Virus record (IMG/VR): IMGVR_UViG_3300017769_000071
Location: 1 to 31,712 of that record
DNA: 31,712 nt
Direction: 5' to 3' (one strand)
Source of the DNA: a virus
In this document: positions 20,131 to 31,712 of the stretch, in pieces
How positions within the stretch are numbered: position 1 is the stretch's first letter
How the letters are laid out: each line of letters opens with the position of its first letter
Translations under genes and position numbers: made by a program
The notes under the pieces: generated by a model
The model's database searches: none
Told to the model about the DNA's origin: nothing
What the model saw: only the letters and a program-made list of their open reading frames with translations

Positions 20131-20373
20131 ATGTCAAAATTACCAAATCGTAGACCGTGTGTAACTGAGGATGTGGGAATGGGTCTGTCTGTTACAGTTA
20201 GTTACCATCCAGAAACAGGTGAGTCTTGCGAAGTATTTATGTCGGGTCGGGGTAAGGCATCGGACAATCCCATGCAAGAAGCCCTGTACAACCTCGGAGT
20301 CAAAGCATCGAAGTTGATGCAGCACAAACCTTTAGCTGCTGAAGAAGAAGAGCAGCAGGCGTCTAACAAGTAG
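20131..20373 (+). CDS. Small conserved-looking phage protein (TSCPD-like segment)
   Basis: 80 residues with RBS GGGAG. The middle (TVSYHPETGESCEVFMSGRG, then a helix ending in KASKLMQH) recalls the TSCPD-like small proteins common in phages, similar to a C-terminal piece of ribonucleotide reductase; this is a low-confidence resemblance and no catalytic role can be claimed. The C-terminus is an acidic EEEEQQ tail. Its TAG stop lies inside an O2 element at 20365-20386, which fills the whole gap to the next ATG. Confidence 0.5.
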   Translation: MSKLPNRRPCVTEDVGMGLSVTVSYHPETGESCEVFMSGRGKASDNPMQEALYNLGVKASKLMQHKPLAAEEEEQQASNK

Positions 20374-20386
20374 AATTGTTCTTGTT
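20365..20386. promoter_or_regulatory. O2 palindromic element with fully paired variant arms
   Basis: AACAAG, ten central bases TAGAATTGTT, then CTTGTT. The arms pair 6 of 6 but differ from the usual AACCAG/CTGGTT, so both sides changed together. It spans the stop codon of the upstream gene and ends directly at the next ATG. Confidence 0.5.
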
Positions 20387-20581
20387 ATGCAGCACCCACC
20401 ACAAATTTTAATTCACCCGTACCCGGATCATGTCTTGATTACGATTGACGGAGTTCAGTATCGTAAACCAATGAAACCAGAACAAATGATCTGGTTATCT
20501 AAGCTGCTGCTAAAAGCGGTGTTGGAAACATACAGGGAGAACAAAGATGGCGAAAGCGAGGCACCACCGCAACTTGTATGA
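20387..20581 (+). CDS. Small protein of unknown function
   Basis: 64 residues. Begins QHPPQILIHPYPDHVLITID and ends with a helix and an acidic tail (ENKDGESEAPPQLV). No clear RBS, because the O2 element occupies the leader, so the O2 arm or a hairpin formed by it may control translation. Within the gene at 20475-20496 there is AACCAG, ten bases, CTGGTT, a perfect 6-bp O2-like dyad encoded by KPEQMIW. Overlaps the next gene by 35 bases. Family not recognised. Confidence 0.5.
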   Translation: MQHPPQILIHPYPDHVLITIDGVQYRKPMKPEQMIWLSKLLLKAVLETYRENKDGESEAPPQLV

Positions 20582-20783
20582 AGGCAAGAACGCAGGAGCT
20601 TCATCTATACATGGTATGGACCAAGTTCATGAACGAGAAAAAGAAGCGAACAGATTGGCCTCTCAAAAGGCCAGTGACATGTTGCCCCCTAACGCTTTTG
20701 CCGATGATATAGAGGATGACGATACAAAGCCATATCGTCCCAGTATAACGTGGATCCCAAGCAAGTCTGCAATAGACATGTAA
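20547..20783 (+). CDS. Small hydrophilic protein of unknown function
   Basis: 78 residues, with GGGAG about seven bases before the ATG. Basic N-terminus (KARHHRNLYEGK), a charged helix (VHEREKEANRLASQKA), then an acidic stretch (DDIEDDDTKPY). It looks like a small, soluble phage accessory protein and no fold is recognised. It is the last gene of the replication operon; the first O1 promoter begins ten bases after the stop. Confidence 0.5.
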   Translation: MAKARHHRNLYEGKNAGASSIHGMDQVHEREKEANRLASQKASDMLPPNAFADDIEDDDTKPYRPSITWIPSKSAIDM

Positions 20784-20792: not shown

Positions 20793-20821
20793 TTGACATA
20801 TAGCAATCATTGCTATATACT
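20793..20821 (+). promoter_or_regulatory. O1-controlled promoter 1
   Basis: TTGACA (20793-20798), 17-base spacer, TATACT (20816-20821). The spacer holds GCAATCATTGC at 20803-20813, which extends to a perfect 19-bp palindrome TATAGCAAT-C-ATTGCTATA. A dimeric repressor here would block RNA polymerase directly. Downstream leader contains a GGGCC/GGCCC hairpin. Confidence 0.8.
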
Positions 20822-20874
20822 ACTCATATCGTTAATCCTCTAACCGGGGCCGTGGCCCTAGAAAGGTGGTCGAT

Positions 20875-21162
20875 ATGACCAATACAAAACCTAACCTTAT
20901 GTGGCTGGAGATTGAATACACAGCCGACACTGAATTGCTGAAAGAGAGAATTGATAAATTAAATCAATTCGCATCCAGCGCTGGTTTGTTATTTGAGGGA
21001 CAGGAGTTCTTCTTATATGAGCATAAGGGGCAAAAATATTTTGGCTTCCAAACTGGCTCATCCGGTACGTTTACTCATAGCTTAGATTGGGGGCATTGGT
21101 TTGATCTTGATTATCATGCTGCGAAGAATGCTCCGACATTAGAGGAGTTAGTACACGGTTAA
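20875..21162 (+). CDS. Small protein of unknown function
   Basis: 95 residues from ATG 20875, chosen over a GTG at 20866 because of the AAAGGTGG RBS. Alternating beta and helix: LMWLEIEYTADTELLKERID, then FASSAGLLFEGQEFFLYEHK and a Trp/His-rich end (DWGHWFDLDYHAAK). No family is recognised. It forms a one-gene transcription unit with its own O1 promoter upstream and a strong terminator immediately downstream, the typical form of an accessory (moron-like) gene. Confidence 0.55.
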   Translation: MTNTKPNLMWLEIEYTADTELLKERIDKLNQFASSAGLLFEGQEFFLYEHKGQKYFGFQTGSSGTFTHSLDWGHWFDLDYHAAKNAPTLEELVHG

Positions 21163-21166
21163 TATT

Positions 21167-21208
21167 ATGCCCGCTAATTAAGTCGAATTAACGGGCATGT
21201 ATTTTTTT
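21167..21208 (+). terminator. Rho-independent terminator
   Basis: ATGCCCG at 21167-21173 pairs with CGGGCAT at 21192-21198, with an inner TAATT/AATTA stem, followed by seven Ts. It ends the unit at 20875 just before the next promoter. Confidence 0.8.
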
Positions 21209-21210
21209 GC

Positions 21211-21240
21211 TTGACACTATGCAAACACTACATGTATAAG
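21211..21240 (+). promoter_or_regulatory. O1-type promoter 2, degenerate operator
   Basis: TTGACA at 21211-21216 and TATAAG at 21235-21240 with an 18-base spacer (or GTATAA with 17). The spacer has GCAAACACTAC at the O1 position, so only the left half-site is intact. It may escape or only weakly obey the O1 regulator. Confidence 0.65.
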
Positions 21241-21272
21241 CTATACATAACTATCAAACGAGAGGTAAAGAC

Positions 21273-21470
21273 ATGGATAACGATCAGATCAATGAGTTGA
21301 GGAAGATGAGCCGTGTAGACGTTGTTTACATATATGAGGAGGTTCACGATCTCTTAAACAGCAAGGATTGGGCAGAGCAGTCATACAAAGCTTCAAGGTT
21401 GTTGGGCATGCTGGCTCACAATTTTCATGCAGACACAGGCCACAAGATTGGCACTGTAGCGGAGTTGTAA
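21273..21470 (+). CDS. Small helical protein of unknown function
   Basis: 65 residues, leader and RBS of the type GAGAGGTAAAGAC that recurs in this region. Three short helices (QINELRKMS, VYIYEEVHDLLNSK, YKASRLLGMLAHNFHAD). No family recognised. First gene of a three-gene unit, with one base between its stop and the next ATG. Confidence 0.5.
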   Translation: MDNDQINELRKMSRVDVVYIYEEVHDLLNSKDWAEQSYKASRLLGMLAHNFHADTGHKIGTVAEL

Positions 21471-21471
21471 G

Positions 21472-21879
21472 ATGAAACGTAGCATTACAATTTATCGCAC
21501 ACCCACAGATGAGTGGTGGGCAAAGACGCTAGAGAATTTGTGGGTCACAGTTCTTGAGGGCGGCAGTAACTATTGGGTAGACAAGATTGACTACGACATG
21601 CCTGAAGGCATGTTGTTCAAGGACGATCTGCCAAGTTTGAAGAGCGGCGCACATCTCGCAGAAAATTTTGAGGTGAAGATCCATCATGGCTCCGATGGTT
21701 GGGAGCCGGATGATCAAGGTGAAGTAGAAACAGTAAAGACATTTGACGTTATGTATCAGGGTATCAATCGTCTGCCTGATAAGTTGAAACTCGTTATTGC
21801 TGATGATGGCGATTGGGATGCTAATGACGCTGATCATATCTTTCAGCTAGGTGTGTTTGGAGAGGTTCGTTATGGATAA
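21472..21879 (+). CDS. Conserved phage protein with GGSNYWV motif
   Basis: 135 residues. The segment LWVTVLEGGSNYWVDKI near residues 24-40 is a motif I know from many unrelated phages (ALEGG-x-x-YW), whose proteins have no assigned function. The middle is acidic and Trp-rich (HHGSDGWEPDDQGE) and the end repeats the acidic Trp theme (IADDGDWDANDAD). It overlaps the next gene by eight bases, so the two should be coupled. Unknown role in early infection. Confidence 0.55.
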   Translation: MKRSITIYRTPTDEWWAKTLENLWVTVLEGGSNYWVDKIDYDMPEGMLFKDDLPSLKSGAHLAENFEVKIHHGSDGWEPDDQGEVETVKTFDVMYQGINRLPDKLKLVIADDGDWDANDADHIFQLGVFGEVRYG

Positions 21880-22063
21880 TTACGAGGTTATAGTGATCAA
21901 GCATTGGTCAGGTAAAACATATAATGTGAATTTGGCTTCTTTTGACAAGAAGGGCTATGGCGTGAGTTACGGCAAAGCATTCAATGTTTCAAAGAAAGAA
22001 GCTGATAAGGAGGCGAAACGTGTCGCCGATTTGTATGGTGTAAAAGAAATTATTTATACTTAG
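21872..22063 (+). CDS. Small basic protein of unknown function
   Basis: 63 residues from ATG 21872, chosen over an in-frame GTG at 21851 because GGAGAGG lies seven bases before it. Beta-hairpin-like N-terminus (YEVIVIKHWSGKTYNVNLAS) followed by a basic helix (FNVSKKEADKEAKRVADLYG). It could be a small nucleic-acid- or host-protein-binding factor, but nothing specific supports that. Followed by a T-rich run and then O1-type promoter 3. Confidence 0.5.
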   Translation: MDNYEVIVIKHWSGKTYNVNLASFDKKGYGVSYGKAFNVSKKEADKEAKRVADLYGVKEIIYT

Positions 22064-22075
22064 TCATTTTTTTTA

Positions 22076-22104
22076 TTGACAAGTATGCAATGACTTCTTA
22101 TATT
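22076..22104 (+). promoter_or_regulatory. O1-type promoter 3
   Basis: TTGACA at 22076-22081, 17-base spacer, TATATT at 22099-22104. The spacer has GCAATGACTTC at 22087-22097, which keeps the left half of the O1 repeat and the final C only. Drives the gene at 22149. Confidence 0.75.
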
Positions 22105-22148
22105 GACTATACAAGACTATCAACCAAAATGTTAGAGAGGTAAAAACA

Positions 22149-22907
22149 ATGGTTGCGAAAAAAACAAATGAGACTATTGAGATCCATAGTGTAAAGCGTG
22201 GAAACATTACTTTGCGTATGATTGGTCAGACGCCGCTGTACTTCAACAGCATGTCTGCGAAGGCCATGCGTGATCTTCTTGTGGGAGGTGGCAGAAAAAC
22301 CGCCGCTGAAAAAAGGGAGATCAAACACAATCCTGAACAGGAGTTTCGTGAGAGTGTGTATACCAAGCCTGATGGCGATACTTATCTTTGCTTCCCCGCG
22401 CCGGGTGTAAAGAGTGCCATGGCTACGGCAGCACTGGAAACTGCTGGCATCAACAAGACAAATGTTAATCGTGGCATTTTTGTGCCGGGTGATCACATTC
22501 AGATTTGGGGCAAGCCTTACCTGAAGATGGACATCGTAAGATCGGCTGACATGAATAAGACGCCAGATGTTCGTACTCGTGCATTCCTGCCTGATTGGGT
22601 TGCTGAAATTAACATCAAGTATGTTGTGCCTACTTTCAGCGCTCATTCCATTATGTCTCTTTTGAATAACGCAGGGGCAATGGTGGGCATTGGTGACTTC
22701 CGTCAGGAAAAGGGTCGTGGTTCTTATGGCACCTTTGCAGTCGCTAGTTCTGAGGATATGGGTGAGTATCAAGAGTTGTGGGACAGCATTACACAGGAAA
22801 GTCGTGAGGTCCAAAAACTTGCGATGGAAAATCCTGATTACGCTGATGAAAAGACTGCTGAATTAATGCAGTTCTTACAAGAAGAAAGGGTGCGTAGAGC
22901 AGCCTAA
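22149..22907 (+). CDS. Conserved phage protein of unknown function, 252 residues
   Basis: The pattern LRMIGQTPLYFNSMSAKAMR, then NPEQEFRESVYTKPDGDTYL, FPAPGVKSAMATAA and finally AMVGIGDFRQEKGRGSYG matches a family I have seen in many siphoviruses and podoviruses, always annotated hypothetical. It has a beta-alpha organisation and no recognisable catalytic motif. An RNA- or DNA-binding fold is possible but not shown. It is a one-gene unit with its own promoter at 22076 and a strong composite terminator at 22912, which indicates high, isolated expression. RBS GAGAGG. A long reverse-strand frame over this gene is a shadow. Confidence 0.7.
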   Translation: MVAKKTNETIEIHSVKRGNITLRMIGQTPLYFNSMSAKAMRDLLVGGGRKTAAEKREIKHNPEQEFRESVYTKPDGDTYLCFPAPGVKSAMATAALETAGINKTNVNRGIFVPGDHIQIWGKPYLKMDIVRSADMNKTPDVRTRAFLPDWVAEINIKYVVPTFSAHSIMSLLNNAGAMVGIGDFRQEKGRGSYGTFAVASSEDMGEYQELWDSITQESREVQKLAMENPDYADEKTAELMQFLQEERVRRAA

Positions 22908-22911
22908 GAAA

Positions 22912-22993
22912 AGAGGGGCGGCGACTTTGGCAAATTTGACGGCACTTTCAGTGGTAAACTCCCCGTCATCTGTTGTCGCCCCTCTGTTTTTTT
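22912..22993 (+). terminator. Composite terminator with inner hairpin
   Basis: AGAGGGGCG at 22912-22920 pairs with the CGCCCCTCT that precedes a run of seven Ts (22987-22993). Within the loop GACGG (22939-22943) pairs with CCGTC (22963-22967). The large loop is uncommon for a simple terminator and may form a structured 3' end of the upstream mRNA. The pentamer array begins a few bases later. Confidence 0.7.
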
Positions 22994-22996
22994 ATG

Positions 22997-23630
22997 TATA
23001 GGGTCGCGGTTAGATATGTTTAGTTCTGGTATGGCGAGGCGGTTTTGGCATGTACTGGGCAGGTAAGTTCGGGAATGGCGGGTTATGTTTTGGTGCGGCG
23101 AGGCGGTTGTGGTTTGACGGCTTCCGGTGTTTTCTGGTCGGTTCCGGCCCGGCTGGGTAGGGTCTGTTACGGCGGTTTCGGTATGGTCAGGTCTGTTAGG
23201 GCTACATGGGTTTAGGCAAGGCGGTTCAGGAAAGTTTCGGTCTGGATCGGCACGGCACGGCTAGTTACGGCAAGGCGGTTTAGACGGGGCATGTTATGGT
23301 ATCTATGTTTTGGTCAGGTCGGGCGTGTTCGGGCTGGTTCAGTTAAGGCGGTTTCGGTATGGTTTGTTGAGGTCCGGTTATGCGCGGCAAGTTTAGTCGG
23401 TCATGGTTGGGAGAGGTGAGGTCAGGTCAGATCAGGTGCGGCGCTTTGTGGCGGTTCTGGTAGGTCAGGTCTGATAGGTTTAGGATGGCGGGTCAAGGCG
23501 GTTAAGGCCGGTTAAGGCGGGGTACGTCCGGTTAAGTTCCGGTGTGTTGGGTCTAGGTGTGTCATGGCGGTCTAGTTGAGGTGTGATGTGGCAGAGCAAA
23601 GTGTGTTCTGTCGGGTTCAGTCAAGGTAAT
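22997..23630. repeat. Degenerate G/T-rich five-base word array, non-coding
   Basis: About 630 bases made of short G-rich words. GGCGGTT occurs eight times and GGTCAGGTC four times, and a 17-base unit is exactly repeated at 23171-23187 and 23347-23363. The words keep a five-base phase over long runs: between 23491 and 23570, 15 of 16 consecutive pentamers start with G, and between 23226 and 23275 eight of ten end in GG. One sampled line (23161-23220) is about 38% G, 32% T, 15% A and 15% C. Stops occur in all frames and no credible gene exists on either strand. It lies between a terminator and an O2 element. Function unknown. Confidence 0.8.
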
Positions 23631-23649
23631 AAGTAAAATTGTTCGTGTG
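23628..23649. promoter_or_regulatory. O2 element, core conserved, arms poor
   Basis: AATAAG, TAAAATTGTT, CGTGTG. The core is conserved but the arms pair poorly. It closes the pentamer array and lies 17 bases before the next ATG. No -35 box is found at 17 bases, so it is not an evident sigma70 promoter. Confidence 0.4.
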
Positions 23650-23666
23650 AAAAAAAGGAGGGCAAA

Positions 23667-24167
23667 ATGGCCTATTTTTCAAAAAAGACTAAACAGAGAA
23701 TAATGGATGACTACCTGAATTTAACAGGTCGGAATATCTATGTTCCCGAAGAATTTTTGTTGTGGTTGAAGGATCAACCAGATCATGAAGCGCATAAGGC
23801 GTTCTGGGGAACCAATGACGAAGATGCTGCAATGCAGTGGCGTATTGATCTGGCGCGAAGGTTCGCATCCGGCCTACGCATCGTTGCCAAGACAGAAGTG
23901 ATTGAAAGCGAAATGCGCCGTGTTAAGGTTACTGAGTACCCGGCGTATATCTCTCCGGTCACAACAAGGCGTCAGGGAGGGGGCTATGAGCCTTTTAATC
24001 CTAATAGCGAAGAATCACAGGCCGAATTACGCCGTCAGGCGGGGGTTGCATTGGCAGCATGGCTTAATCGCTATCGTGGCGCGGCTGAGAACGTTGGCTT
24101 GGACATGACGCCAATTGAGCGCATAGCAGAAATGTTGCGCGATGAAAAAGTGGAGGCCGCTGAATAG
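23667..24167 (+). CDS. Conserved phage protein of unknown function, 166 residues
   Basis: Strong RBS (AAGGAGGG). Residues about 36-70 (DQPDHEAHKAFWGTNDEDAA, then MQWRIDLARRFASGL) match a pattern I recall from alphaproteobacterial phage and prophage proteins, DPxHPAHxWFxWDDxxAAxxYRxxxAR, followed by a basic VRR-like strand and a GGGY-x-PF motif. Those proteins have no assigned function. The C-terminus is helical (RRQAGVALAAWLNRYRGAAE). It lies between the pentamer array and a structured intergenic region, upstream of the small terminase gene, so a link to packaging or DNA handling is possible but unproven. Confidence 0.6.
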   Translation: MAYFSKKTKQRIMDDYLNLTGRNIYVPEEFLLWLKDQPDHEAHKAFWGTNDEDAAMQWRIDLARRFASGLRIVAKTEVIESEMRRVKVTEYPAYISPVTTRRQGGGYEPFNPNSEESQAELRRQAGVALAAWLNRYRGAAENVGLDMTPIERIAEMLRDEKVEAAE

Positions 24168-24362
24168 AACAAGGGGCGTAGTATACCTTTCTGGGCGAGG
24201 AGCATTAGGTTTGTCCTCGTCCTAGCCTCCCGATGGCGGAACACAACGCCGCAGATCCCTAAATTAAAGCCACCCTACCGAATAGACATGGGCGTTAATC
24301 ATGGGCAAAGACAGGCTACGCATAATAGAAAAACTGTCTAATCTGCGGAACACCTAAATTAT

Positions 24363-24385
24363 ACCAGTTCTTGATTTGTTCTGGT
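24363..24385. promoter_or_regulatory. O2-like dyad with 13-base spacer
   Basis: ACCAG and CTGGT pair but are separated by 13 instead of ten bases. The right half GATTTGTTCTGGTT is the exact reverse complement of the half-site at 26102-26115. Confidence 0.35.
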
Positions 24386-24474
24386 TTTGGTTTAGAGGTT
24401 TAAAAAACCAAAGTTGGTACCCCAAAGTTGATAAAGTTGTTCGTTATCAAGGGGTTAAGAGGTTTTGGTTTGGG

Positions 24475-24504
24475 TTTGCAATGATAGCAAAAACAAAGTA
24501 AAAT
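24475..24504 (+). promoter_or_regulatory. Possible promoter with O1-like site
   Basis: GCAATGATAGC at 24478-24488 differs from O1 by one base. A weak TTTGCA (24475-24480) with TAAAAT (24499-24504) at 18 bases could form a promoter for the zinc-ribbon and terminase genes. The operator would then cover the -35 box rather than the spacer. Confidence 0.35.
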
Positions 24505-24633
24505 AGGGGTCGTAAGTCATTGAAAAGGTTCAAACTTTGTGGTTTGGTTTTTTCACCCTATTACATAGGGGTATAGGTATATAAACCTATACCCTGTAGC
24601 ATGGTGGTCAGCAGCGCCAAAATGGAGGTAAAT

Positions 24634-24876
24634 ATGAACCAGAGTAATTGTTCTTATTGTGGGGAGCGTAAAGGGTATATCGTGCTGAGTAATAAGCAGT
24701 GGTGCGAAGTGTGCTGGGAAGATGCACAGAACAATTTCAACAAAAACTATGAAGAGTTGCTAGAGCGCAGGTATCTGATCAAAGGCATGCGAGATGCAGG
24801 TTGGCAGATTACCATGAAAGGCAATATGTATTATCCAGATGATGAACACAGCAACGTGTTCCATATAAGCTTCTAG
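24634..24876 (+). CDS. Small zinc-ribbon protein
   Basis: 80 residues from ATG 24634, preferred over an in-frame ATG at 24601 because GGAGG lies five bases before it. CSYCGERKGYIVLSNKQWCE followed by VCWED gives a C-x2-C and C-x2-C pair near residues 6-27, a classic zinc ribbon. The C-terminal half is helical and aromatic (EELLERRYLIKGMRDAGW). It is likely a small regulatory or nucleic-acid-binding protein. The first codons lie in an O2 element. It ends nine bases before the small terminase ATG, with GGAGGG in between, so the two are probably cotranscribed. Confidence 0.65.
   Translation: MNQSNCSYCGERKGYIVLSNKQWCEVCWEDAQNNFNKNYEELLERRYLIKGMRDAGWQITMKGNMYYPDDEHSNVFHISF
24637..24658. promoter_or_regulatory. 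O2 element inside a gene start
   Basis: AACCAG, AGTAATTGTT, CTTATT; four of six arm pairs. It overlaps codons 2-9 of the zinc-ribbon gene, so it could act on transcript or translation initiation, or be coincidental in coding sequence. Confidence 0.3.
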
Positions 24877-24885
24877 GAGGGCAGC

Positions 24886-25410
24886 ATGCCAAAGGTCGGA
24901 GAGGACTTGCCAAAGGAACAGCGCGAAGCTGGTCTAAGGCGTTTGAAACCACAGCAACAGGAATTTCTTGATTACTATCTGCACAAGGATATGACGCAGA
25001 CAGAAGCAGCGCGAAGAGCGAAGTACAAAAACCCGACAGTGCAAGCTGTCAGGCTATTGCGTAATCCAGTGGTACAAGACCGTTTGCAAGAGATGAGATT
25101 GGAGGCCCAAGCAAGGTTCGGGGTCACAGTGGACAAGTCTATTCGGGACTTGAAAAAGATTCGGGATCAAGCGTGGGAGATGGGTAAGTTCAGCGAAGCA
25201 ATTCGGGCTGAAGAGTTGCGCCTGAAAGCTGCGGGACTACTGATCAACAAGCAGCATGTCATCAAAGAGGAAATAACTGCGTCTACAAAAGAGGAAATAG
25301 CGAAGAAACTAGAGGACTTCAGGAGACTCGCAGAGGGTCGTATGCGTAACGTAACACCAGATATGGAAGCAATAGAGCATGAACCACAAGATATAGTAGC
25401 GGATAATTGA
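24886..25410 (+). CDS. terS: Terminase small subunit
   Basis: 174 residues, RBS GGAGGG. The N-terminal part RLKPQQQEFLDYYLHKDMTQ, TEAARRAKYKNPTVQAVRLL and RNPVVQDRLQEM is the helix-turn-helix region of the Terminase_2 small subunit family; a helical oligomerisation part (SIRDLKKIRDQAWEMGKF) and a charged tail follow. It recognises the packaging start site on phage DNA and delivers it to the large subunit, which is not in this window. Unusually it lies among small accessory genes rather than directly before the large subunit. The pentamer array about 1.3 kb upstream is a candidate recognition region. Confidence 0.85.
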   Translation: MPKVGEDLPKEQREAGLRRLKPQQQEFLDYYLHKDMTQTEAARRAKYKNPTVQAVRLLRNPVVQDRLQEMRLEAQARFGVTVDKSIRDLKKIRDQAWEMGKFSEAIRAEELRLKAAGLLINKQHVIKEEITASTKEEIAKKLEDFRRLAEGRMRNVTPDMEAIEHEPQDIVADN

Positions 25411-25430
25411 GAATCGACTAATTGTTCTCG
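25409..25430. promoter_or_regulatory. O2-related element after terS
   Basis: Core ACTAATTGTT with GAGAA (25409-25413) and TTCTC (25425-25429) as paired flanks. It overlaps the terS stop codon region. Confidence 0.35.
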
Positions 25431-25467
25431 TTTGCCTTGGGCGGGGGGACGGGGCGGAGCCTGCGGG

Positions 25468-25489
25468 TTCCAGTAGAATTGTTCGGGTT
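25468..25489. promoter_or_regulatory. O2 element
   Basis: TTCCAG, TAGAATTGTT, CGGGTT. Core conserved, arms mixed between the CCAG and CGGG types. It leads into the TTCGGG repeats upstream of the terminator. Confidence 0.4.
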
Positions 25490-25543
25490 CGGGATGGTCT
25501 TCGGGCTTCGGGCTTCGGGTTCGGGCTTGACTCGGCCTTCGGG
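25482..25543 (+). repeat. TTCGGG hexamer cluster
   Basis: Seven TTCGGG copies at 25482, 25488, 25500, 25507, 25514, 25520 and 25538. In RNA each UUCG with flanking G/C could be part of stable tetraloops, and the G3 runs give a G-quadruplex motif. Confidence 0.65.
25503..25525 (+). other. G-quadruplex motif
   Basis: Four GGG runs at 25503-25505, 25510-25512, 25517-25519 and 25523-25525 with loops of 4, 4 and 3 bases, fitting the canonical G3N1-7 pattern on the + strand (DNA and mRNA). Confidence 0.55.
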
Positions 25544-25578
25544 GTCGGGCCATGATTGGTTGATTCCTCCCAAGACCT

Positions 25579-25610
25579 CCCCGGTGGCACCCGTGCTGCC
25601 GGGGTTTTTT
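25579..25610 (+). terminator. Rho-independent terminator after terS
   Basis: CCCCGG (25579-25584) pairs with CCGGGG (25599-25604), and the inner GGCAC pairs with GTGCT through wobble-tolerant bases; six Ts follow. Strong terminator for the terS unit, with O2 copies on both sides. Confidence 0.8.
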
Positions 25611-25626
25611 GTTCGGGGTCGGGAAG

Positions 25627-25648
25627 ACACAGTACAATTGTTCGGGTC
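25627..25648. promoter_or_regulatory. O2 element
   Basis: ACACAG, TACAATTGTT, CGGGTC. Core identical to the copies at 25761, 26165 and 27082. Lies just after the terminator. Confidence 0.45.
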
Positions 25649-25696
25649 CAACCCCGGTGTTATGTGTGCCAGTTGTGTTAGTCGTCAATGCTTTGT

Positions 25697-25753
25697 CCAA
25701 CAGCAGTGTTACTGTTACCAGTTGTATTCCCAACAGCAGTGTTATTGCTACCA
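25697..25753. repeat. Two 24-base direct repeats
   Basis: CCAACAGCAGTGTTA then two variable pyrimidines and TACCA, at 25697-25720 and 25730-25753, start to start 33 bases. They differ at two positions, both C/T. A weaker third unit (CCAAC, GTGTTA, CCAGTTGT) precedes and a partial one (ACAGCAGTGGTAAT) follows at about 25790. Confidence 0.6.
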
Positions 25754-25760
25754 TTGGTAA

Positions 25761-25782
25761 AACCAGTACAATTGTTCCTTGT
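25761..25782. promoter_or_regulatory. O2 element
   Basis: AACCAG, TACAATTGTT, CCTTGT. Left arm and core consensus, right arm diverged; an alternative GTACAA/TTGTAC pair exists within it. Confidence 0.45.
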
Positions 25783-25873
25783 ACGGATAGACAGCAGTGG
25801 TAATCTCGGCGTTGGGAAAACAAGAAGAAGCAGTTGAGGACAATCTGTATGATAAAAAAATATTATTTTCTTG

Positions 25874-25902
25874 TTGACTCACCTGGCAATGATTGCTATA
25901 TA
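25874..25902 (+). promoter_or_regulatory. O1-controlled promoter 4
   Basis: TTGACT at 25874-25879, 17-base spacer, TATATA at 25897-25902. GCAATGATTGC sits at 25886-25896, perfect O1. Drives the small membrane protein gene at 25933. Confidence 0.8.
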
Positions 25903-25932
25903 TAATAGGTAAGTTAAACAAAGGAGGCAAAA

Positions 25933-26103
25933 ATGACTAAGGGAGATCTAGTAACGGGACTCGGCTTCGTCCTCGTGTTGTTGATGTCGGGGCTAGAGCC
26001 AATGCCTCACAACTTCCAAGCTTTCTGGTTTCACATCGGGCTTCTGATGATCGGGGTGGTAGCTATGGCTACGGGAGTATGGATGAGGTGGAAGCGAATC
26101 TAA
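25933..26103 (+). CDS. Small two-helix membrane protein
   Basis: 56 residues. AAGGAGG precedes the ATG by about six bases, and O1 promoter 4 lies 30 bases upstream, so this short frame has better expression signals than most neighbours. Two hydrophobic segments (VTGLGFVLVLLMSGL, then HIGLLMIGVVAMATGVWM) are separated by a polar turn (EPMPHNFQAFWF), and the protein ends with basic WKRI. The shape fits a small holin or a superinfection-type membrane protein, but no family is recognised and the distance from the lysozyme argues against a simple lysis cassette. A one-gene unit with a terminator 23 bases after the stop. Confidence 0.65.
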   Translation: MTKGDLVTGLGFVLVLLMSGLEPMPHNFQAFWFHIGLLMIGVVAMATGVWMRWKRI

Positions 26104-26115
26104 CCAGAACAAATC
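26102..26115. promoter_or_regulatory. O2 half-site
   Basis: AACCAGAACAAATC beginning within the stop codon. Only the left half of O2 is present. It precedes the terminator at 26126. Confidence 0.35.
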
Positions 26116-26125
26116 ACTGAGACTC

Positions 26126-26151
26126 ACCCGGCTTCCGCCGGGTATTTTTTT
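26126..26151 (+). terminator. Rho-independent terminator
   Basis: ACCCGGC (26126-26132), TTCC loop, GCCGGGT (26137-26143), then a run of seven Ts. Confidence 0.85.
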
Positions 26152-26164
26152 GTCCGCAGGCTAT

Positions 26165-26186
26165 AACCAGTACAATTGTTCGTGCT
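26165..26186. promoter_or_regulatory. O2 element
   Basis: AACCAG, TACAATTGTT, CGTGCT. Placed after the terminator and before O1 promoter 5. A GC-rich hairpin and an A-run/T-run hairpin follow before the promoter. Confidence 0.45.
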
Positions 26187-26248
26187 ACTTCTGAGCGCCG
26201 GAAGCCGCAGCACGGCTGCAAAAAAAAACTTTTTTGTGCTTTTTCTTA

Positions 26249-26277
26249 TTGACACTGCTTGCAATGATTGCTATTTA
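26249..26277 (+). promoter_or_regulatory. O1-controlled promoter 5
   Basis: TTGACA at 26249-26254, 17-base spacer, TATTTA at 26272-26277, with perfect O1 GCAATGATTGC at 26261-26271. Drives 26310 and the GGCT-like gene. Confidence 0.8.
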
Positions 26278-26309
26278 TATACCTATCGAAACAAGAAGAG
26301 GTAAAGACA

Positions 26310-26612
26310 ATGTACAAGTACCAAGAAATCAAAGAGCATTTTGTTGAGTGGATGGAAGAGCAAGACGCTGAGTGGCTACAGGCTAACAAAGACGACTGGC
26401 ATCACCACGCCTTCAACATGGACTATTACATCATTGGAACACACAAAGCCAAAGAATGGATGGGTGACAAAGTTTTTGACATCATTGAAGCCATCAAGAC
26501 CTACGAGCAAGATAACTTTGGTGAAGTGACAACAGACTTTTCCGACCCAGAAAAGCTAGTGAATATGTATGCTTATATTGTGGGTGAAGAAGTCGTGAAC
26601 GAATGGAGATAA
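26310..26612 (+). CDS. Acidic protein of unknown function
   Basis: 100 residues from ATG 26310, which has GAGG in the recurring leader GAAGAGGTAAAGAC; an upstream TTG lies inside the promoter and is excluded. It is acidic and Trp-rich (YKYQEIKEHFVEWMEEQDAE, WLQANKDDWHHHAF), helical, with a DYYIIGTHKAKEWMGDKVFD centre. It may be an inhibitor-type small protein, since such acidic Trp-rich shapes are common among phage counter-defence proteins, but that is a guess. The next frame, the GGCT-like gene, follows after four bases. Confidence 0.55.
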   Translation: MYKYQEIKEHFVEWMEEQDAEWLQANKDDWHHHAFNMDYYIIGTHKAKEWMGDKVFDIIEAIKTYEQDNFGEVTTDFSDPEKLVNMYAYIVGEEVVNEWR

Positions 26613-26616
26613 AGAG

Positions 26617-27015
26617 ATGTTATACTTTTCTTATGGTTCAAACTTGAACCAATCACAAATGGCTTTCCGCTGTCCTACAGCGGAGCCGCTTGGGTCCGCA
26701 TACTTTCCCGGCTGAAAACTGGTGTTTAAGGGTGTTGCCGATATTGTTATCGGGGAACCTGAAGACTTGCTACCTGTCGGGATCTGGAATATTGGGCCTT
26801 GGGATGAGGCAGCACTAGATCGGTATGAAGGCTTCCCGCGTTTATACAGGAAGGAAACAATTAACGGGATGATGACTTACATTATGAACAAACACGGGTT
26901 GCATCCACCGTCAGTCGATTACTTCAACACGATTTTGATCGGGTATGATGACTTCGGGCTTGATACTTCGGCGCTTTACTCGGCGCTTGATGAGTCAGAG
27001 CTTTCTGTAGCCTAG
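26617..27015 (+). pseudogene. Gamma-glutamylcyclotransferase-like protein with in-frame TGA
   Basis: One continuous frame of 132 residues apart from TGA at codon 33 (26713-26715). Before it: MLYFSYGSNLNQSQMAFRCP, TAEPLGSAYFPG. After it: KLVFKGVADIVIG, PVGIWNIGPWDEAALDRYEG, FPRLYRKE, PPSVDYFNTILIGYDDFGLD. This is the AIG2/GGCT fold of the phage type, with substrate loop YGSNL and catalytic Glu near codon 71. Family proteins typically have Trp at the TGA position (PGW-x-LVF-x-GVADI, from memory), and TGG to TGA is one base. GGCT enzymes release 5-oxoproline from gamma-glutamyl amines or peptides. The gene may be inactive, read through, or carry a sequencing error. The 3' part alone could start at GTG 26722. 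Confidence 0.75.
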
Positions 27016-27031
27016 TAAAATTGTTCTGGTT
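27010..27031. promoter_or_regulatory. O2 element over the GGCT stop codon
   Basis: GCCTAG, TAAAATTGTT, CTGGTT. The TAG stop at 27013-27015 is part of the left arm. Right arm is consensus. Confidence 0.45.
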
Positions 27032-27039
27032 CCGAAGAG

Positions 27040-27069
27040 ATCCCCGCAGCACGGTGCGGGGATTTTTTT
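27040..27069 (+). terminator. Rho-independent terminator
   Basis: ATCCCCGCA (27040-27048) pairs with TGCGGGGAT (27055-27063), then seven Ts. O2 copies lie 9 bases before and 13 bases after. Confidence 0.85.
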
Positions 27070-27081
27070 GTCCCCGGAAAA

Positions 27082-27103
27082 AACCAGTACAATTGTTCCG
27101 TTT
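27082..27103. promoter_or_regulatory. O2 element
   Basis: AACCAG, TACAATTGTT, CCGTTT. With the copy at 27010 it can form 12 of 13 base pairs around the terminator. Confidence 0.45.
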
Positions 27104-27153
27104 ATTTACTAAAGATTCAACGCAAAAAAAGTATCAATCGCTACTTTTTGTTG

Positions 27154-27182
27154 TTGACTGTTTGCAATGATTGCTATAACTT
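27154..27182 (+). promoter_or_regulatory. O1-controlled promoter 6
   Basis: TTGACT at 27154-27159, 17-base spacer, TAACTT at 27177-27182 (TATAAC two bases earlier is an alternative -10). Perfect O1 GCAATGATTGC at 27164-27174. An AAAAAGTA/TACTTTTT hairpin lies just upstream. Confidence 0.75.
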
Positions 27183-27216
27183 ATGTATATCGTTAACAAG
27201 TAAGAGGTATAAAACA

Positions 27217-27429
27217 ATGTTTAATTACGCACATGTTGTAAAGATGGCTGGATGGAAGCTTTATCATGTAATGACACCAGCAGATGATCTTCTTGTGTCT
27301 GTCGCGCCAAATGTAGATCTTGATGATAACGTCACTGCTTTCTGTCATGAGGAGCAAGAGATGATTAAGATTCAGGGATGGAATTGTACATTCCAAGAGA
27401 TTGATTACATGACAGGAAAGGAATTGTAG
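27217..27429 (+). CDS. Small protein of unknown function
   Basis: 70 residues from ATG 27217 with AGAGG upstream; earlier in-frame starts lie in the promoter. Contains AHVVKMAGWKLYHVMTPADD and a C-terminal KIQGWNCTFQEIDYMTGKEL, with regular aromatic residues suggesting a small alpha/beta fold. No family recognised. One base separates its stop from the next ATG. Confidence 0.5.
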   Translation: MFNYAHVVKMAGWKLYHVMTPADDLLVSVAPNVDLDDNVTAFCHEEQEMIKIQGWNCTFQEIDYMTGKEL

Positions 27430-27430
27430 T

Positions 27431-27679
27431 ATGTGGTTCGCTAGTGTTTCTCCGAATATCTGGATTGTCGATGATGGCACACTGGATACAGTAGTCAGGT
27501 TTTATGATGGCAAAGACACACAAACTTATCGTTACGATACCGAGTATCGTAATGGTTTCCCTGATGACGATCAATTTCTGCGAGAGGTATACAAAGAATT
27601 AAATGCGTATGTTGTGCAGAATGAGATTAGGTCAGTGCATACTGGTAACTCAAACCCAGCAGGCAATCCTTGGGATTAA
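27431..27679 (+). CDS. Small protein of unknown function
   Basis: 82 residues, beginning MWFASVSPNIWIVDDGTLDT, with a beta-rich first half and an acidic helix (DDDQFLREVYKELNAYVVQN). Ends with a Pro/Trp tail (NPAGNPWD). Second gene of the two-gene unit from O1 promoter 6, closed by a terminator 20 bases later. No similarity recognised. Confidence 0.5.
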   Translation: MWFASVSPNIWIVDDGTLDTVVRFYDGKDTQTYRYDTEYRNGFPDDDQFLREVYKELNAYVVQNEIRSVHTGNSNPAGNPWD

Positions 27680-27699
27680 ATAATTCGATCTAATACGAG

Positions 27700-27724
27700 C
27701 CGGGCAGCGATGCCCGGTTTTTTT
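27700..27724 (+). terminator. Rho-independent terminator
   Basis: CCGGGCA (27700-27706), GCGA loop, TGCCCGG (27711-27717), seven Ts. Confidence 0.85.
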
Positions 27725-27731
27725 GTGTTCA

Positions 27732-27753
27732 AACTAGTATAATTGTTCTGAAT
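27732..27753. promoter_or_regulatory. O2 element
   Basis: AACTAG, TATAATTGTT, CTGAAT. The core contains TATAAT but there is no -35 box at 17 bases (CGGTTT), so a promoter is unlikely. Confidence 0.4.
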
Positions 27754-27858
27754 CGGGGAATCGGGGATCGGGGATTCTGTTGCCTGCCCCATAGTATTTT
27801 GAGCGCTTCCGTCCTCCTAACATAAACCCCCCACGCGCGTTCTTTTTTTCTTTTTTTT

Positions 27859-27875
27859 GAACAATTGTTCTGGTT
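27859..27875. promoter_or_regulatory. O2 element, palindromic core
   Basis: GAACAATTGTTC is a perfect 12-bp palindrome followed by TGGTT, the full right arm. It follows a T-rich tract and lies 47 bases before O1 promoter 7. Confidence 0.45.
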
Positions 27876-27921
27876 ATTTTTAAGTCATTGTTTTTAAACA
27901 ATAAAACAGTGCATTTTTTTA

Positions 27922-27950
27922 TAGATTTGTGCAATGATTGCTGATATACA
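27922..27950 (+). promoter_or_regulatory. O1-controlled promoter 7
   Basis: TAGATT at 27922-27927, 17-base spacer, TATACA at 27945-27950, with perfect O1 GCAATGATTGC at 27931-27941. The weaker -35 suggests lower basal activity. Drives the amidoligase gene. Confidence 0.7.
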
Positions 27951-28005
27951 ATAGAGACAAGGCCGAAGGTAGGCCTGCAAAACTAGAAAAAAGGTAGTAA
28001 AAACA

Positions 28006-29382
28006 ATGACTTACAATTTTGAAACAGACTTTCCGACATTTGGCGTTGAATGGGAATGGTGCAATGCAAGGCCAGCAATTATCAATCCGACTGATGATAC
28101 TAGGGTTAAAGCCAAAAAAGAGGCTTTTAATCAGGCTGGCGAAATAGCCCATGGTTTTAAAGCACATCGTAATAATTGGGATTACGAAAATTGGGCCAGA
28201 GAATTGACAGCACTTGGCTTTGACTGGGTTTTCTATCAGGGTGTTGACCGTCATTCTTCCCCTGAAAGCACTCAAGGCATTAAATGCGAGGCTACCAGCC
28301 CACCATTCTCAATTCTTTCAATGCAAGCCAAGTCTGACATCAAGCGTTTTTTAAATGCCATTGAAAGCCTTGGTGGTAGGGGTTGGCACCAATACCGCTT
28401 TGAACAAGAGTACAAGGCTGGCATGCACTGTCACATTGGCAACGCTTGGATATTGGCAAGTCACCAGTCACCAGATCAACATTGGCATGAAAGCAAGCAA
28501 TACATGGCATCGTCAAAACGCCACTATTCTGGCGCGACTGGTGATGTTATGCCATTGGAATTAGCAAAGGATGTTATCACTAGATTTGCTGGCGCACAGC
28601 ATGACGCATGCTTGCCATATGACAGGCGTCAATCATCTGGCAACTATGGCCATGGCCTCTGGCCTTGTACTGATATCAGACACGTTGCTGAGAATGGTCA
28701 AAGTCATTCTGATTTCTGGAATGCTGACACGCCAGCAAGTGCCGCCAGAATATTAGGCCGTCACGGTAGCAGTTCAAAATTTGCCGCTGTTTCGCTTGAT
28801 ACATGGACAAGACTTGGCACTGTAGAATTTAGACAACACCAGACAACACTTAGTGTTGATAAGCTTTGGCATTGGCTTGGCTTGATTGATAACGCTTTTA
28901 GGACCAGTGCCAAAGGCCGTATCAATTGGCTGGCCATAGGCCAGAGTGCAACACCAAGTGTTGTATCAACGCCAGAGCAATTGTTTCGCGCCCACAGTCG
29001 TCTAGGTTTGATCTACACAATGATAAGGCGCGATGGGGGTGCTACCACTCAAGACTTGATTAACGCCACTGGCATTGAGGCTCAAAGCATACGCGCCAGA
29101 ATGACAGAGATCCGCAATCGTCTCTCAGCCTCTGGTGTTGATGGTCAATCAGCACTGGTTACACACACGCAACAAGCCTATGGCAACGCTTATGGCGCAA
29201 GCCAAGGCCGTCATGATTTGAATGGCTATGAGGTATTGAGAGAAGTCACAACAACGCCAGTTCAACTTGATCCACTGCTATCAGAGAATGCCAGAGGCCC
29301 GGCCTCACTTTGGTATGGTTTATCAGACGATGCCTTTGAATATTTCCAGAGGCGAATACACACATATCGCAATAGCGCATGA
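28006..29382 (+). CDS. Amidoligase (Amidoligase_2-like) with C-terminal winged helix
   Basis: 458 residues. Amidoligase motifs: FGVEWEW at 12-18 with E15 and E17, GMHCHIG near 139-145, and GTVEFRQH near 272-279. These are the metal and ATP-binding positions of the glutamine-synthetase-like COOH-NH2 ligases predicted to join carboxyl and amino groups on peptides or small molecules. Residues about 340-375 (GGATTQDLINATGIEAQSIR, then ARMTEIRNRL) read as a winged helix of the kind used to bind DNA, an unusual addition. Gly is mostly GGC and GGCC is frequent, unlike neighbours, suggesting a separate origin. A one-gene unit with its own promoter and terminator. The substrate is unknown. Confidence 0.75.
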   Translation: MTYNFETDFPTFGVEWEWCNARPAIINPTDDTRVKAKKEAFNQAGEIAHGFKAHRNNWDYENWARELTALGFDWVFYQGVDRHSSPESTQGIKCEATSPPFSILSMQAKSDIKRFLNAIESLGGRGWHQYRFEQEYKAGMHCHIGNAWILASHQSPDQHWHESKQYMASSKRHYSGATGDVMPLELAKDVITRFAGAQHDACLPYDRRQSSGNYGHGLWPCTDIRHVAENGQSHSDFWNADTPASAARILGRHGSSSKFAAVSLDTWTRLGTVEFRQHQTTLSVDKLWHWLGLIDNAFRTSAKGRINWLAIGQSATPSVVSTPEQLFRAHSRLGLIYTMIRRDGGATTQDLINATGIEAQSIRARMTEIRNRLSASGVDGQSALVTHTQQAYGNAYGASQGRHDLNGYEVLREVTTTPVQLDPLLSENARGPASLWYGLSDDAFEYFQRRIHTYRNSA

Positions 29383-29394
29383 CCATGCGCTATA
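29373..29394. other. Hairpin spanning the amidoligase stop codon
   Basis: ATAGCGCAT and ATGCGCTAT pair over 9 bp with a GACC loop; the TGA stop lies in it. No T-run follows; the true terminator is at 29411. Confidence 0.5.
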
Positions 29395-29410
29395 TCTCTT
29401 AACCATGATT

Positions 29411-29437
29411 AGGCCGCCACTGGCGGCCTTTCTTTTT
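29411..29437 (+). terminator. Rho-independent terminator
   Basis: AGGCCGCC and GGCGGCCT pair around an ACT loop, followed by TTCTTTTT. Confidence 0.8.
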
Positions 29438-29455
29438 GTCTGGTGGGTATGTAGT

Positions 29456-29475
29456 ACCCGAACAATTGTACGGGT
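29456..29475. promoter_or_regulatory. O2 element with fully paired GC arms
   Basis: ACCCG, AACAATTGTA, CGGGT. All five arm positions pair, with bases different from the AACCAG type. It lies after the terminator. Confidence 0.5.
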
Positions 29476-29698
29476 TCAGTGGCGCTCAGATCGCCGCTAT
29501 TGGCATTGTTGCTGCTGGCAGGTACCCTAAGCCTGCAAATATCCGCAAAATATCGGGCGCATGGGTATATGTCCCCCCCTTATAAAAAAATCTTGACACG
29601 GCGATGGGTTGCGCCAAGTTCCCCATAAACAACCACCAGATTTTACGCAGATATACCCCCCTAAAAATTTTGCAAAAAAATTTTATAATATTTTCTCA

Positions 29699-29727
29699 TA
29701 GACTTCTTGCAACCTTTGCACTACATT
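29699..29727 (+). promoter_or_regulatory. O1-type promoter 8, variant operator
   Basis: TAGACT at 29699-29704, 17-base spacer, TACATT at 29722-29727. TGCAA-CCT-TTGCA at 29708-29720 is a perfect dyad in the same place as O1 but with altered inner bases. It drives 29753 and the XRE gene, which could make this the autoregulated site. Confidence 0.65.
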
Positions 29728-29752: not shown

Positions 29753-30004
29753 ATGAAGACTTTTAAGCTAAACGTAGGTGGTGATCCCATCTTCTTTGAA
29801 GCTTCAGATGCGTCTGGGTTTCTGGACGCATGGGGCGTCATTAACAGAAACTGGTCGCCGGATGCTGACAAATGGAGAAGGGCTGCTGCTCAACTTGCTT
29901 GTGACTTTTCTGGCAAGCCAATGCGCTTTGACAATGACTCAAATCTTGCTACCGACATGATGGAAGCTGGCATGTTGGAGGAGGTAGGAGATGCACAAGG
30001 CTAA
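29753..30004 (+). CDS. Small acidic protein of unknown function
   Basis: 83 residues with a strong RBS (AAAGGAGG). Short beta start (KTFKLNVGGDPIFFEAS), then helices with WRRAAAQLACDFSGKPM and an acidic end (MMEAGMLEEVGDAQG). No fold recognised. It overlaps the repressor-like gene by 14 bases, and the two are likely produced together from promoter 8. Confidence 0.55.
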   Translation: MKTFKLNVGGDPIFFEASDASGFLDAWGVINRNWSPDADKWRRAAAQLACDFSGKPMRFDNDSNLATDMMEAGMLEEVGDAQG

Positions 30005-30371
30005 AGAATCATACAGCATGTGGAGCGGCAAGATGCTTGTAGACAAGCGTAAGTCGTTAAACATGACACAAATGGCGATGGCTCGTACTTTGGGTGTGAG
30101 CCATCGTATGTATTGTTATTATGAGAAGGGTGAGCAGAACATTCCACGCTCTGCCGAATTAGCTGTGCGTTGGATGGAATACAACAGTGCTGACGGCATA
30201 TTTCGTGTAGCGCCAAATCCTGACAAGAGTTTAACGTCATTTGACCGTGAGCGTATAATCAGACTGTGCGGTGCATTGGGTGGTACGGAGGGTACTGACG
30301 CTCAAATGGACAAGATTTTACAGCAGTCAAAGAAGGAGCTTGAGTATCTGTTGTCAAAGTTTGAAGAATGA
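29991..30371 (+). CDS. XRE-family helix-turn-helix regulator
   Basis: 126 residues. An HTH of Cro/CI type at about residues 22-55 (LNMTQMAMARTLGVSHRMYC, then YYEKGEQNIPRSAELA), followed by a helical C-terminal part (TDAQMDKILQQSKKELEYLL) that could dimerise. XRE dimers bind short dyads like GCAAT-N-ATTGC, so this is the best candidate for the O1 regulator, and it is itself downstream of an O1-type promoter. No LexA-like cleavage domain is present. RBS GGAGG; overlaps the upstream gene by 14 bases. Confidence 0.8.
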   Translation: MHKAKESYSMWSGKMLVDKRKSLNMTQMAMARTLGVSHRMYCYYEKGEQNIPRSAELAVRWMEYNSADGIFRVAPNPDKSLTSFDRERIIRLCGALGGTEGTDAQMDKILQQSKKELEYLLSKFEE

Positions 30372-30410
30372 CCTATCATTGGCTCCATGTATTTTCCGTA
30401 GGGGATGGTC

Positions 30411-31712
30411 ATGGCGAATTTTATGGGGCCGATGGCACCGCCACAGGCGGCGCAACCACAACCACCGCAGTTAGACGTTAGAACGAATCCGGCACAACGA
30501 GCGCAGTTTAAGAACTTCATGTCGAGCATGTCTGCTCCCATGATGCCGACCACTGCGCCTGTTGCTCCGATGCTTCCTGCGCCAAGCCCCATGGACCAGA
30601 TTGACATCTTTGATCCTGTACAGGCCATGGCTTCTGGCGGCGTTGTTGGTGGCCTTGAGGATTTAGGCAAGATGTCTGGTCAGATGGTTGAGGCTTTGAA
30701 CACTGTTGTTTATGGCGGTGGTCAGGGTGGTGGCATGGGCGGTATGCCTTCTGTTCAGCCGTTGCCTGACACGGGACAAATAGCAACACAATTTCCTATG
30801 AATAATGCGATAACGCAGTTTCCTAGTCTTCCTACTAAGATGTCTCCGGGCATAAGCACTGGACCGGGTGCGAATCTTTTAGACATGCAATCCAGATATG
30901 ATGAGGCTGTAGCGGATGCCAGAAGGCAGCGTGAGGGTGGTTTCATGGGCCGCGTGGTGTTGCCCGGTGAGATGTCGTTTGATGATTTTAGTGAGTTTAA
31001 CTCAGTTGCAGACAATTATGAGCCTTTGCAGGGCGTGGGTTCACAGCCATACATAGGTAATCCCATATTTGATCAGATCCGTGCTTTTGCTGACGGTGGA
31101 GCCGCTGGTGACGGTGGCAGGGAACGTGGTCGTGGTGGTTTTCAAGGCGCTGGAGATGCTGGCTTTGCTGGTGGAGGTAATTTCCCTTCAGAAACCAGCG
31201 GTGGTGGGAACCAAGACAGCGGTAAGGATGACAATGAGTCCGCTGTTGATGCGGCTTTAAATAGAATAATTGATCAAATAAGAGATCCTGATCCAGATCC
31301 TGTTATTAATCTTAATCAAAGATTAGCTGAAACTCAATTGGACCCTATGGGTACTTTGGTTGAGCAAGTAACTCCGTCTGAAGACACATCTAACACCAGT
31401 TCAGCAGTGGGTAATGTTTCTCAACAACCCGGTTCTGGTATAGCCGCCGTTACAACAAATAAAGGCTATGATGGCTTTACTTTTGACAATTTGACAGATC
31501 TTTTTGAGTTGCAGGCTATGCAAGCGGCTTCTGCTCAAGATACCGAAGGCACAATTGCAGAAAACGCATCAGATGATGTTGTTGACGCTGCTGTAGGGCG
31601 GCGGTTTTTGACCCCCGGAATGGATGGCCCTACTCCTGCACAATTAGCCACTCAATCAATTCCTGACGAGCTTTCTGGTCAATCTCCGTTTACGAGTGGT
31701 GGAGTTCCTAGA
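30411..31712 (+). CDS. Pro/Gly-rich, probably structural protein, 3' end missing
   Basis: 434 codons without a stop up to the window end. ATG 30411 with AGGGG six bases before it is preferred; ATG 30405 is in frame. Starts MANFMGPMAPPQAAQPQPPQ, then FKNFMSSMSAPMM and PVQAMASGGVVGGLEDLG, with Gly-rich blocks (YGGGQGGGMGGM, FADGGAAGDGGRERGRGGFQ) and later acidic, disordered-looking stretches. ASGGVVGGL-like and FADGG-like motifs occur in internal virion proteins of marine phages. It could open the late structural module that would continue right of the window. Specific role unknown. Confidence 0.6.
   Translation, partial: MANFMGPMAPPQAAQPQPPQLDVRTNPAQRAQFKNFMSSMSAPMMPTTAPVAPMLPAPSPMDQIDIFDPVQAMASGGVVGGLEDLGKMSGQMVEALNTVVYGGGQGGGMGGMPSVQPLPDTGQIATQFPMNNAITQFPSLPTKMSPGISTGPGANLLDMQSRYDEAVADARRQREGGFMGRVVLPGEMSFDDFSEFNSVADNYEPLQGVGSQPYIGNPIFDQIRAFADGGAAGDGGRERGRGGFQGAGDAGFAGGGNFPSETSGGGNQDSGKDDNESAVDAALNRIIDQIRDPDPDPVINLNQRLAETQLDPMGTLVEQVTPSEDTSNTSSAVGNVSQQPGSGIAAVTTNKGYDGFTFDNLTDLFELQAMQAASAQDTEGTIAENASDDVVDAAVGRRFLTPGMDGPTPAQLATQSIPDELSGQSPFTSGGVPR

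Follow-up and report, generated by a model that had tools for sequence, protein, structure and literature searches.

Most of the small accessory genes in the 31,712-bp virus record IMGVR_UViG_3300017769_000071 (the window, which is the entire record) follow predicted promoters that share an 11-bp inverted repeat, O1 (GCAATNATTGC, GCAAT-N-ATTGC), in the spacer between the -35 and -10 boxes. O1 is likely the operator of a phage-encoded XRE-type helix-turn-helix (HTH) protein, hereafter XRE, which would shut off the accessory genes and its own operon in the manner of Aca and Cro repressors. The window carries genes for tail proteins, lysis, recombination and replication, and a stretch at 20-30 kb is made up of small genes. 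It has no close cultured relative; the best match to its tail protein is at 41% and that to its primase at 44%. The relatives of this phage are metagenomic contigs, and their kind suggests that the phage group is marine.

The original prediction placed eight -35-like boxes about 17-18 bp from a -10-like hexamer and described an 11-bp slot inside each spacer. All eight promoters and slots read as described (Table 1), with five exact copies of O1 between the two boxes and three weaker sites. The -35 box is TTGACA or TTGACT in the promoters at 20793, 21211, 22076, 25874, 26249 and 27154 and is weaker at 27922 (TAGATT) and 29699 (TAGACT). A strict promoter pattern had no match over the 31.7-kb record because the promoter spacing varies, and local patterns were used instead. 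Dinucleotide shuffles predict 0.10 exact copies of O1 against the five observed, and none of 100 shuffles reached five. Seven sites match O1 at 8 or more of 10 positions and lie 10-13 bp behind a -35-like box. For 150 control palindromes with the composition of O1, the mean was 0.68 and the count always stayed below seven. Furthermore, GCAAT-1-ATTGC is the commonest 5+5 dyad in the window when all dyads with spacers of 0-12 are counted. The repeat is not equally frequent in the structural genes, which hold no copy; all five exact copies lie at 20.8-27.9 kb.

Two samples of relatives, both chosen without regard to O1, gave the same picture. Across 861 kb that surround 80 primase relatives, O1 is the commonest 5+5 dyad with spacers of 0-8 (49 distinct contexts), and exact promoter-anchored copies number 33 versus 0.08 for control palindromes. 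Two relatives without O1 (records L014 and L076) stop just past the primase gene, before the accessory region, and are uninformative. The 74 loci selected by their XRE gene contain 43 exact promoter-anchored copies versus 0.00 for the controls. We grouped promoter-anchored sites into 84 clusters, with more than 20% difference over 44 bp between clusters, and built a profile from them. It shows, in order, the -35 box, a stretch of near-zero information (about 0.05 bits), O1 and a T/A-rich -10 region. Within O1, the outer GCAA/TTGC positions are the most conserved and the centre is free. O1 starts 10, 11, 12 or 13 bp past the start of the -35 box, and the -35/-10 spacer is mostly 17 bp. This movable phase, together with the low information of the intervening stretch, marks O1 as an element in its own right, superimposed on a sigma-70 promoter, and not part of a copied promoter. 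A recent duplication of promoter cassettes was also considered and rejected, because the 84 clusters share less than 80% identity and yet retain O1.

The location of O1, always within the spacer and with a second site (O2) upstream, could also be read as that of an activator site, bound in the spacer by a MerR-like protein, or as an intrinsic part of the promoter. We regard both as very improbable. Spacers of about 17 bp with near-consensus boxes need no activator, the phase between the -35 box and O1 shifts by as much as 3 bp, and orthologous promoters exist with strong and with weak O1.

O1 is specific to this phage group. Among the 88 loci fetched from viral contigs with the exact promoter-plus-O1 pattern, 82 hold homologues of the group. 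The other six are a short end fragment (L092) and two unrelated sequences, one of them identical in L098, L141, L160 and L167 and the other in L110, which are probably chance matches. In the species genomes of 84,980 bacteria and archaea, a collection that possibly lacks the host, the same pattern was about as frequent as chance predicts, with nine matches versus about 5.6 expected by our own arithmetic. This distribution bears on whether a host regulator binds O1 and ties the phage genes into a host regulon. The promoters are of the host sigma-70 type, but the chance-level count in cellular genomes and the confinement of 82 of the 88 loci to this phage group make such a regulon highly unlikely.

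The strength of O1 differs from gene to gene in a conserved manner. For example, exact copies are present in 33 of 41 orthologous leaders of the 26310 gene and in 8 of 14 of the gene for the 458-amino-acid protein, and the orthologous leaders of 21273 and 22149 have a weaker yet conserved site. Orthologues of the 21211 promoter keep GCAATCACTTC or GCAAACACTTC, and those of the 22076 promoter read GCAATCTTTGC or GCAGTGTTTGC; this retention supports the weak sites of the window. For the operon of XRE and the preceding gene, g83, 53 of 57 distinct leader contexts hold a site that matches O1 at 8 or more of 10 positions (exact in nine), mostly GCAATCTTTGC, GCAACCTTTGC or GCAATCGTTGC. The control leaders, those of the terminase small subunit (TerS), have one in 3 of 57. 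By orthologue comparison, O1 quality is thus conserved promoter by promoter, exact at promoters of the 26249 and 27922 types and weaker at the XRE operon, g65 and g252. The graded repression that the original prediction suggested may follow from this gradation. Its proposal of a regulon of nearly all accessory genes holds for most of the small ones and is too broad for the rest. The leaders of g166 (23667), g86 and TerS (24634/24886), as well as those of the endolysin and structural genes, have background O1 scores in the orthologue comparison, and a promoter with O1 was not found ahead of the small open reading frames (ORFs) at 20131-20783. The regulated genes mostly have no recognizable function. 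The recognizable ones are the gamma-glutamylcyclotransferase-like gene and the 458-amino-acid protein, which has a weak match to Amidoligase_2.

XRE is the best candidate for the O1-binding protein. The original prediction had named XRE or a ribbon-helix-helix (RHH) protein (12164), and XRE is favoured by O1 in front of its own operon, invariant residues in the recognition helix and covariation with the operator. XRE has an HTH_3-type DNA-binding domain, which scores 21.4 bits in the window against a cut-off of 23 and is above the cut-off, at the same locus, in 3 of 18 records. HTH_3 matches were present in 13 of the 18 records and were confined to the XRE locus in all but one of these. Among the XRE-selected loci, exact O1 occurs in 31 of 41 whose XRE is at least 60% identical to that of the window and in 20 of 21 at 42-57% identity; these two sets are the nearer clades of the group. 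Residues S37, H38, R39 and M40 (SHRM) of the recognition helix are invariant down to 30% identity, and g83 is paired with XRE in all three clades of the group.

Another phage protein would be the binder if O1 were read by RHH or by a 106-amino-acid HTH protein (14733), both small proteins of DNA-binding types and the former conserved in clades A and C. We consider this quite unlikely. O1 precedes the XRE operon in nearly all relatives and not the RHH or 106-amino-acid HTH genes, and the latter protein went undetected in those clade C records whose promoters are of the O1 type. No O1 stands in the RHH promoter, where conserved repeats are found instead. In many relatives, the leader of this minus-strand gene (12352-12393) contains repeated ATGGG, likely a separate autoregulatory operator.

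The operator and the predicted recognition residues of XRE co-vary between clades. The third clade (clade C; 32 contigs, XRE at 30-33% identity) uses GCAATNATTAC, GTAATNATTGC or GTAATNATTAC beside GCAATNATTGC in the same promoter slot, which relaxes the operator to GYAATNATTRC. An O1-like site is present in all 31 leaders of the clade C XRE operon that are of sufficient length. In one permissive search, positions 2 and 10 of O1 were C..G in 59 of 59 sites from clades A and B versus 8 of 41 from clade C; positions 1 and 11 remain G..C in clade C. In clade C, XRE residues 41-43 read WNH instead of YCY. When the clade C profile is aligned with Aca10 without gaps, R39 falls on Aca10 R34 and residues 42 and 43 fall on Q37 and Q38. 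These Aca10 residues and their Aca2 counterparts (R30, Q33 and Y34) are listed as important for promoter recognition (PMC9410881). If XRE reads O1, the clade C protein would accept GCAATCATTAC better than the window protein does, via residues 41-43. Such a natural operator shift, accompanied by changes in the recognition helix, is a ready test of how an Aca-like HTH fold reads DNA.

These observations most likely reflect an early shut-off circuit. A dimer of XRE would bind the O1 palindrome between the -35 and -10 boxes and occlude RNA polymerase. Early in infection, host polymerase would fire the accessory promoters, and those with strong boxes and a perfect O1 would be highly expressed and the first to be shut off. 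XRE would accumulate from its own weaker promoter, with its weaker -35 box and usually imperfect O1. Its operon would stay on longer, and XRE would then limit its own synthesis, setting the final level of repressor. The same elements could instead describe a temperate phage in which XRE is a CI-like immunity repressor that acts through O1 to keep the accessory genes silent in the prophage. The P1 C1 and phiC31 repressors likewise each control many strong operators at early-type promoters, and XRE is weakly similar to models of RstR/DicA-type repressors. We nevertheless consider immunity unlikely. Tyrosine integrases (PF00589) were found in 0 of 20 and serine recombinases (PF00239) in 0 of 18 related records, many of which are fragments. 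The absence of an integrase leads us to prefer a lytic, Cro- or Aca-like early shut-off over lysogenic immunity. Furthermore, no relative of XRE, and hence no prophage, was found in the 84,980 bacterial and archaeal genomes, and XRE is co-directional with its putative target genes and adjoins the structural genes rather than diverging from an early operon.

Several points weigh against XRE as a lytic repressor acting through O1. All records are metagenomic contigs and many are fragments, so that the absence of an integrase or of XRE from them is little proof, and many contigs are near kin, so that counts are not equal to independent events. The conservation of RHH in clade C as well leaves this protein disfavoured as the O1 binder and no more. 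The G+C content of clade C is lower (0.38 versus 0.46) and might favour C-to-T changes at positions 2 and 10, a drift not seen at positions 1 and 11. Finally, the predicted structure of XRE is good over the HTH (predicted local distance difference test, pLDDT, of about 90 for residues 11-50; helices at 13-22, 27-34, 38-46 and 53-65) and poor beyond it. The C-terminal half is poorly modelled, with a predicted template modelling score (pTM) of 0.49, so that any dimer geometry on the 11-bp site is tentative.

The second site, O2 (GWACAATTGTTC), is the next most enriched dyad after O1 in the 861 kb of relatives. The form (AACC)NGWACAATTGTTCG has about 11 copies in the window, all in the accessory region and often flanking terminators. 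Among 152 distinct O1-type promoters, 110 have the O2 core in the 300 bp upstream, usually at 50-110 bp from the -35 box, compared to 18 for an equal downstream stretch. We rejected O2 as an RNA hairpin, as its arms do not covary and the commonest change (T/T at arm position 5) breaks the pair. This lack of RNA covariation suggests that O2 is probably a second protein site.

The closest structural parallels of XRE are the Aca proteins. The best fold matches over the HTH were Aca10 (Z 10.1), SO3848 (10.1) and Aca2 (10.0), and the top matches, with Z scores of 8.4 to 10.1, also include NE0471, Aca1 and HigA2. The neighbours listed for Aca10 itself are Aca2, NE0471, SO3848, HigBA2 and Aca1 (PMC9410881). 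Like Aca1, Aca2 and Aca10, XRE is a small HTH protein encoded by the second gene of a short operon (PMC8434428, PMC9410881, PMC9410906), its operon has an inverted repeat inside its own core promoter, and its DNA-reading residues can be aligned. The HTH fold is common, so we treat this likeness as resemblance and not membership. None of the Aca family models matched 17 XRE members (NCBIfam and Pfam), which hit only HTH families below threshold; Aca2 and Aca10 appeared among PDB sequences only at E values of 0.02-0.25, and no known acr gene lies beside XRE. The model of g83 is confident (pLDDT 89.6) and has no family or PDB fold match. A search for g83 as a known anti-CRISPR also found no fold match (best Z 2.5, weak and uninformative). 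Unlike in Aca systems, the 11-bp dyad recurs at about eight operons within a single phage.

In concept, the nearest system is that of the archaeal rudivirus SIRV2, whose early genes share a regulatory sequence that is the proposed target of Aca8 (PMC11065993). In both cases, one conserved sequence covers most dispersed small early genes, including that of the regulator, and repression after early expression is proposed. SIRV2 has archaeal promoters with a TATA box and a B recognition element (BRE) and conserves the whole promoter region; the window phage has bacterial sigma-70-type promoters with a dyad that is discrete and movable and with O2 as a separate site. One phage repressor with many identical operators per genome is also the design of P1 C1, the phiC31 repressor and mycobacteriophage L5 gp71. 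These repressors maintain lysogeny, whereas no integrase was found here. The stoperators of L5 gp71 are asymmetric and spread outside promoters (PMC9283540), unlike O1, a symmetric dyad inside promoter spacers.

As with lambda Cro, an HTH repressor made by the phage would use graded operators to lower the expression of early genes and of its own gene. Cro controls two promoters, each with three operators, in competition with CI; the window phage has single operators at many operons, and no CI partner was seen. A literature search on lytic-phage regulons, within the terms tried, found no closer case. A broader reading is possible, though doubtful: the O1 regulon may comprise early anti-defence and host-takeover genes, controlled by a two-site module of O2 and O1 and an Aca-like repressor with clade-shifted specificity. 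If so, O1 and O2 could serve as bait for anti-defence genes of bacterial phages, in the way the SIRV2 sequence was used for archaeal viruses, and g83 would be a first candidate. From sequence alone, the uncultured phage group gains a testable circuit with a named operator, a named candidate repressor and a predicted gene list.

Table 1. Predicted promoters, O1 and O2 sites and associated genes in the window.
Feature	Position	Strand	Details
Promoter TTGACA-17-TATACT	20793..20821	+	Exact O1 GCAATCATTGC at 20803-20813; before ORF 20872-21162; matching site in L105/L103
Promoter	21211..21240	+	Degenerate O1 GCAAACACTAC at 21221-21231; before 21273-21470, 21472-21879 and 21851-22063
Promoter TTGACA-17-TATATT	22076..22104	+	Partial O1 GCAATGACTTC at 22087-22097; before ORF 22149-22907
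Promoter	25874..25905	+	Exact O1 GCAATGATTGC at 25886-25896; before ORF 25933-26103
Promoter	26249..26282	+	Exact O1 GCAATGATTGC at 26261-26271; before ORF 26310-26612 and gamma-glutamylcyclotransferase-like gene 26617-27012
Promoter	27154..27183	+	Exact O1 GCAATGATTGC at 27164-27174; before ORFs 27217-27429 and 27431-27679
Promoter, weak -35 TAGATT	27922..27952	+	Exact O1 GCAATGATTGC at 27931-27941; before 458-amino-acid ORF 28006-29382
g83-XRE operon promoter TAGACT-17-TACATT	29699..29727	+	Weaker O1 GCAACCTTTGC at 29709-29719
g83	29753..30004	+	83 amino acids; opens the XRE operon; conserved with XRE
XRE-type HTH protein	29991..30371	+	126 amino acids; proposed O1-binding autorepressor
O2 copies	20368, 23631, 25471, 25630, 25764, 26168, 27013, 27085, 27735, 27857, 29458		Plus-strand coordinates
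O2 CAGTACAATTGTTC	25764..25781	+	About 104 bp upstream of the 25874 promoter
O2	26168..26185	+	About 75 bp upstream of the 26249 promoter
O2	27085..27102	+	About 63 bp upstream of the 27154 promoter
O2 GAACAATTGTTC	27857..27874	+	About 59 bp upstream of the 27922 promoter
Terminase small subunit (TerS)	24886-25410		

Other elements were noted near these genes. The promoter of the replication operon (TTGACATAGAACTATCAAAG, 12760-12830; operon at 12829) has no O1 in the window; in some relatives, the operon has a 9/10 site, and orthologous promoters in some of them contain GCGATGATTGC or a half site (GAAAAGATTGC). The gamma-glutamylcyclotransferase-like gene has a TGA codon where most relatives encode Trp (FPGW). 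The identical TGA is present in L124, which is 90% identical, and a sense codon in other relatives; the codon could be a stop, a recoding site or the mark of a pseudogene. A stretch of about 650 bp (22930-23620) consists of G-rich, degenerate and apparently non-coding repeats (GGCGGTTTCGGTATGGT-like), and similar stretches lie upstream of g166 homologues in relatives. Downstream of XRE, the first structural gene has its ribosome site and start codon enclosed by a conserved 14-bp RNA-type stem (30376-30389 with 30422-30435). The cells of this stem are paired in 99.6% of cases across 20 relatives, with changes mostly to G-U, and other clades have different hairpins over that ribosome site. The stem possibly blocks translation of read-through transcripts.

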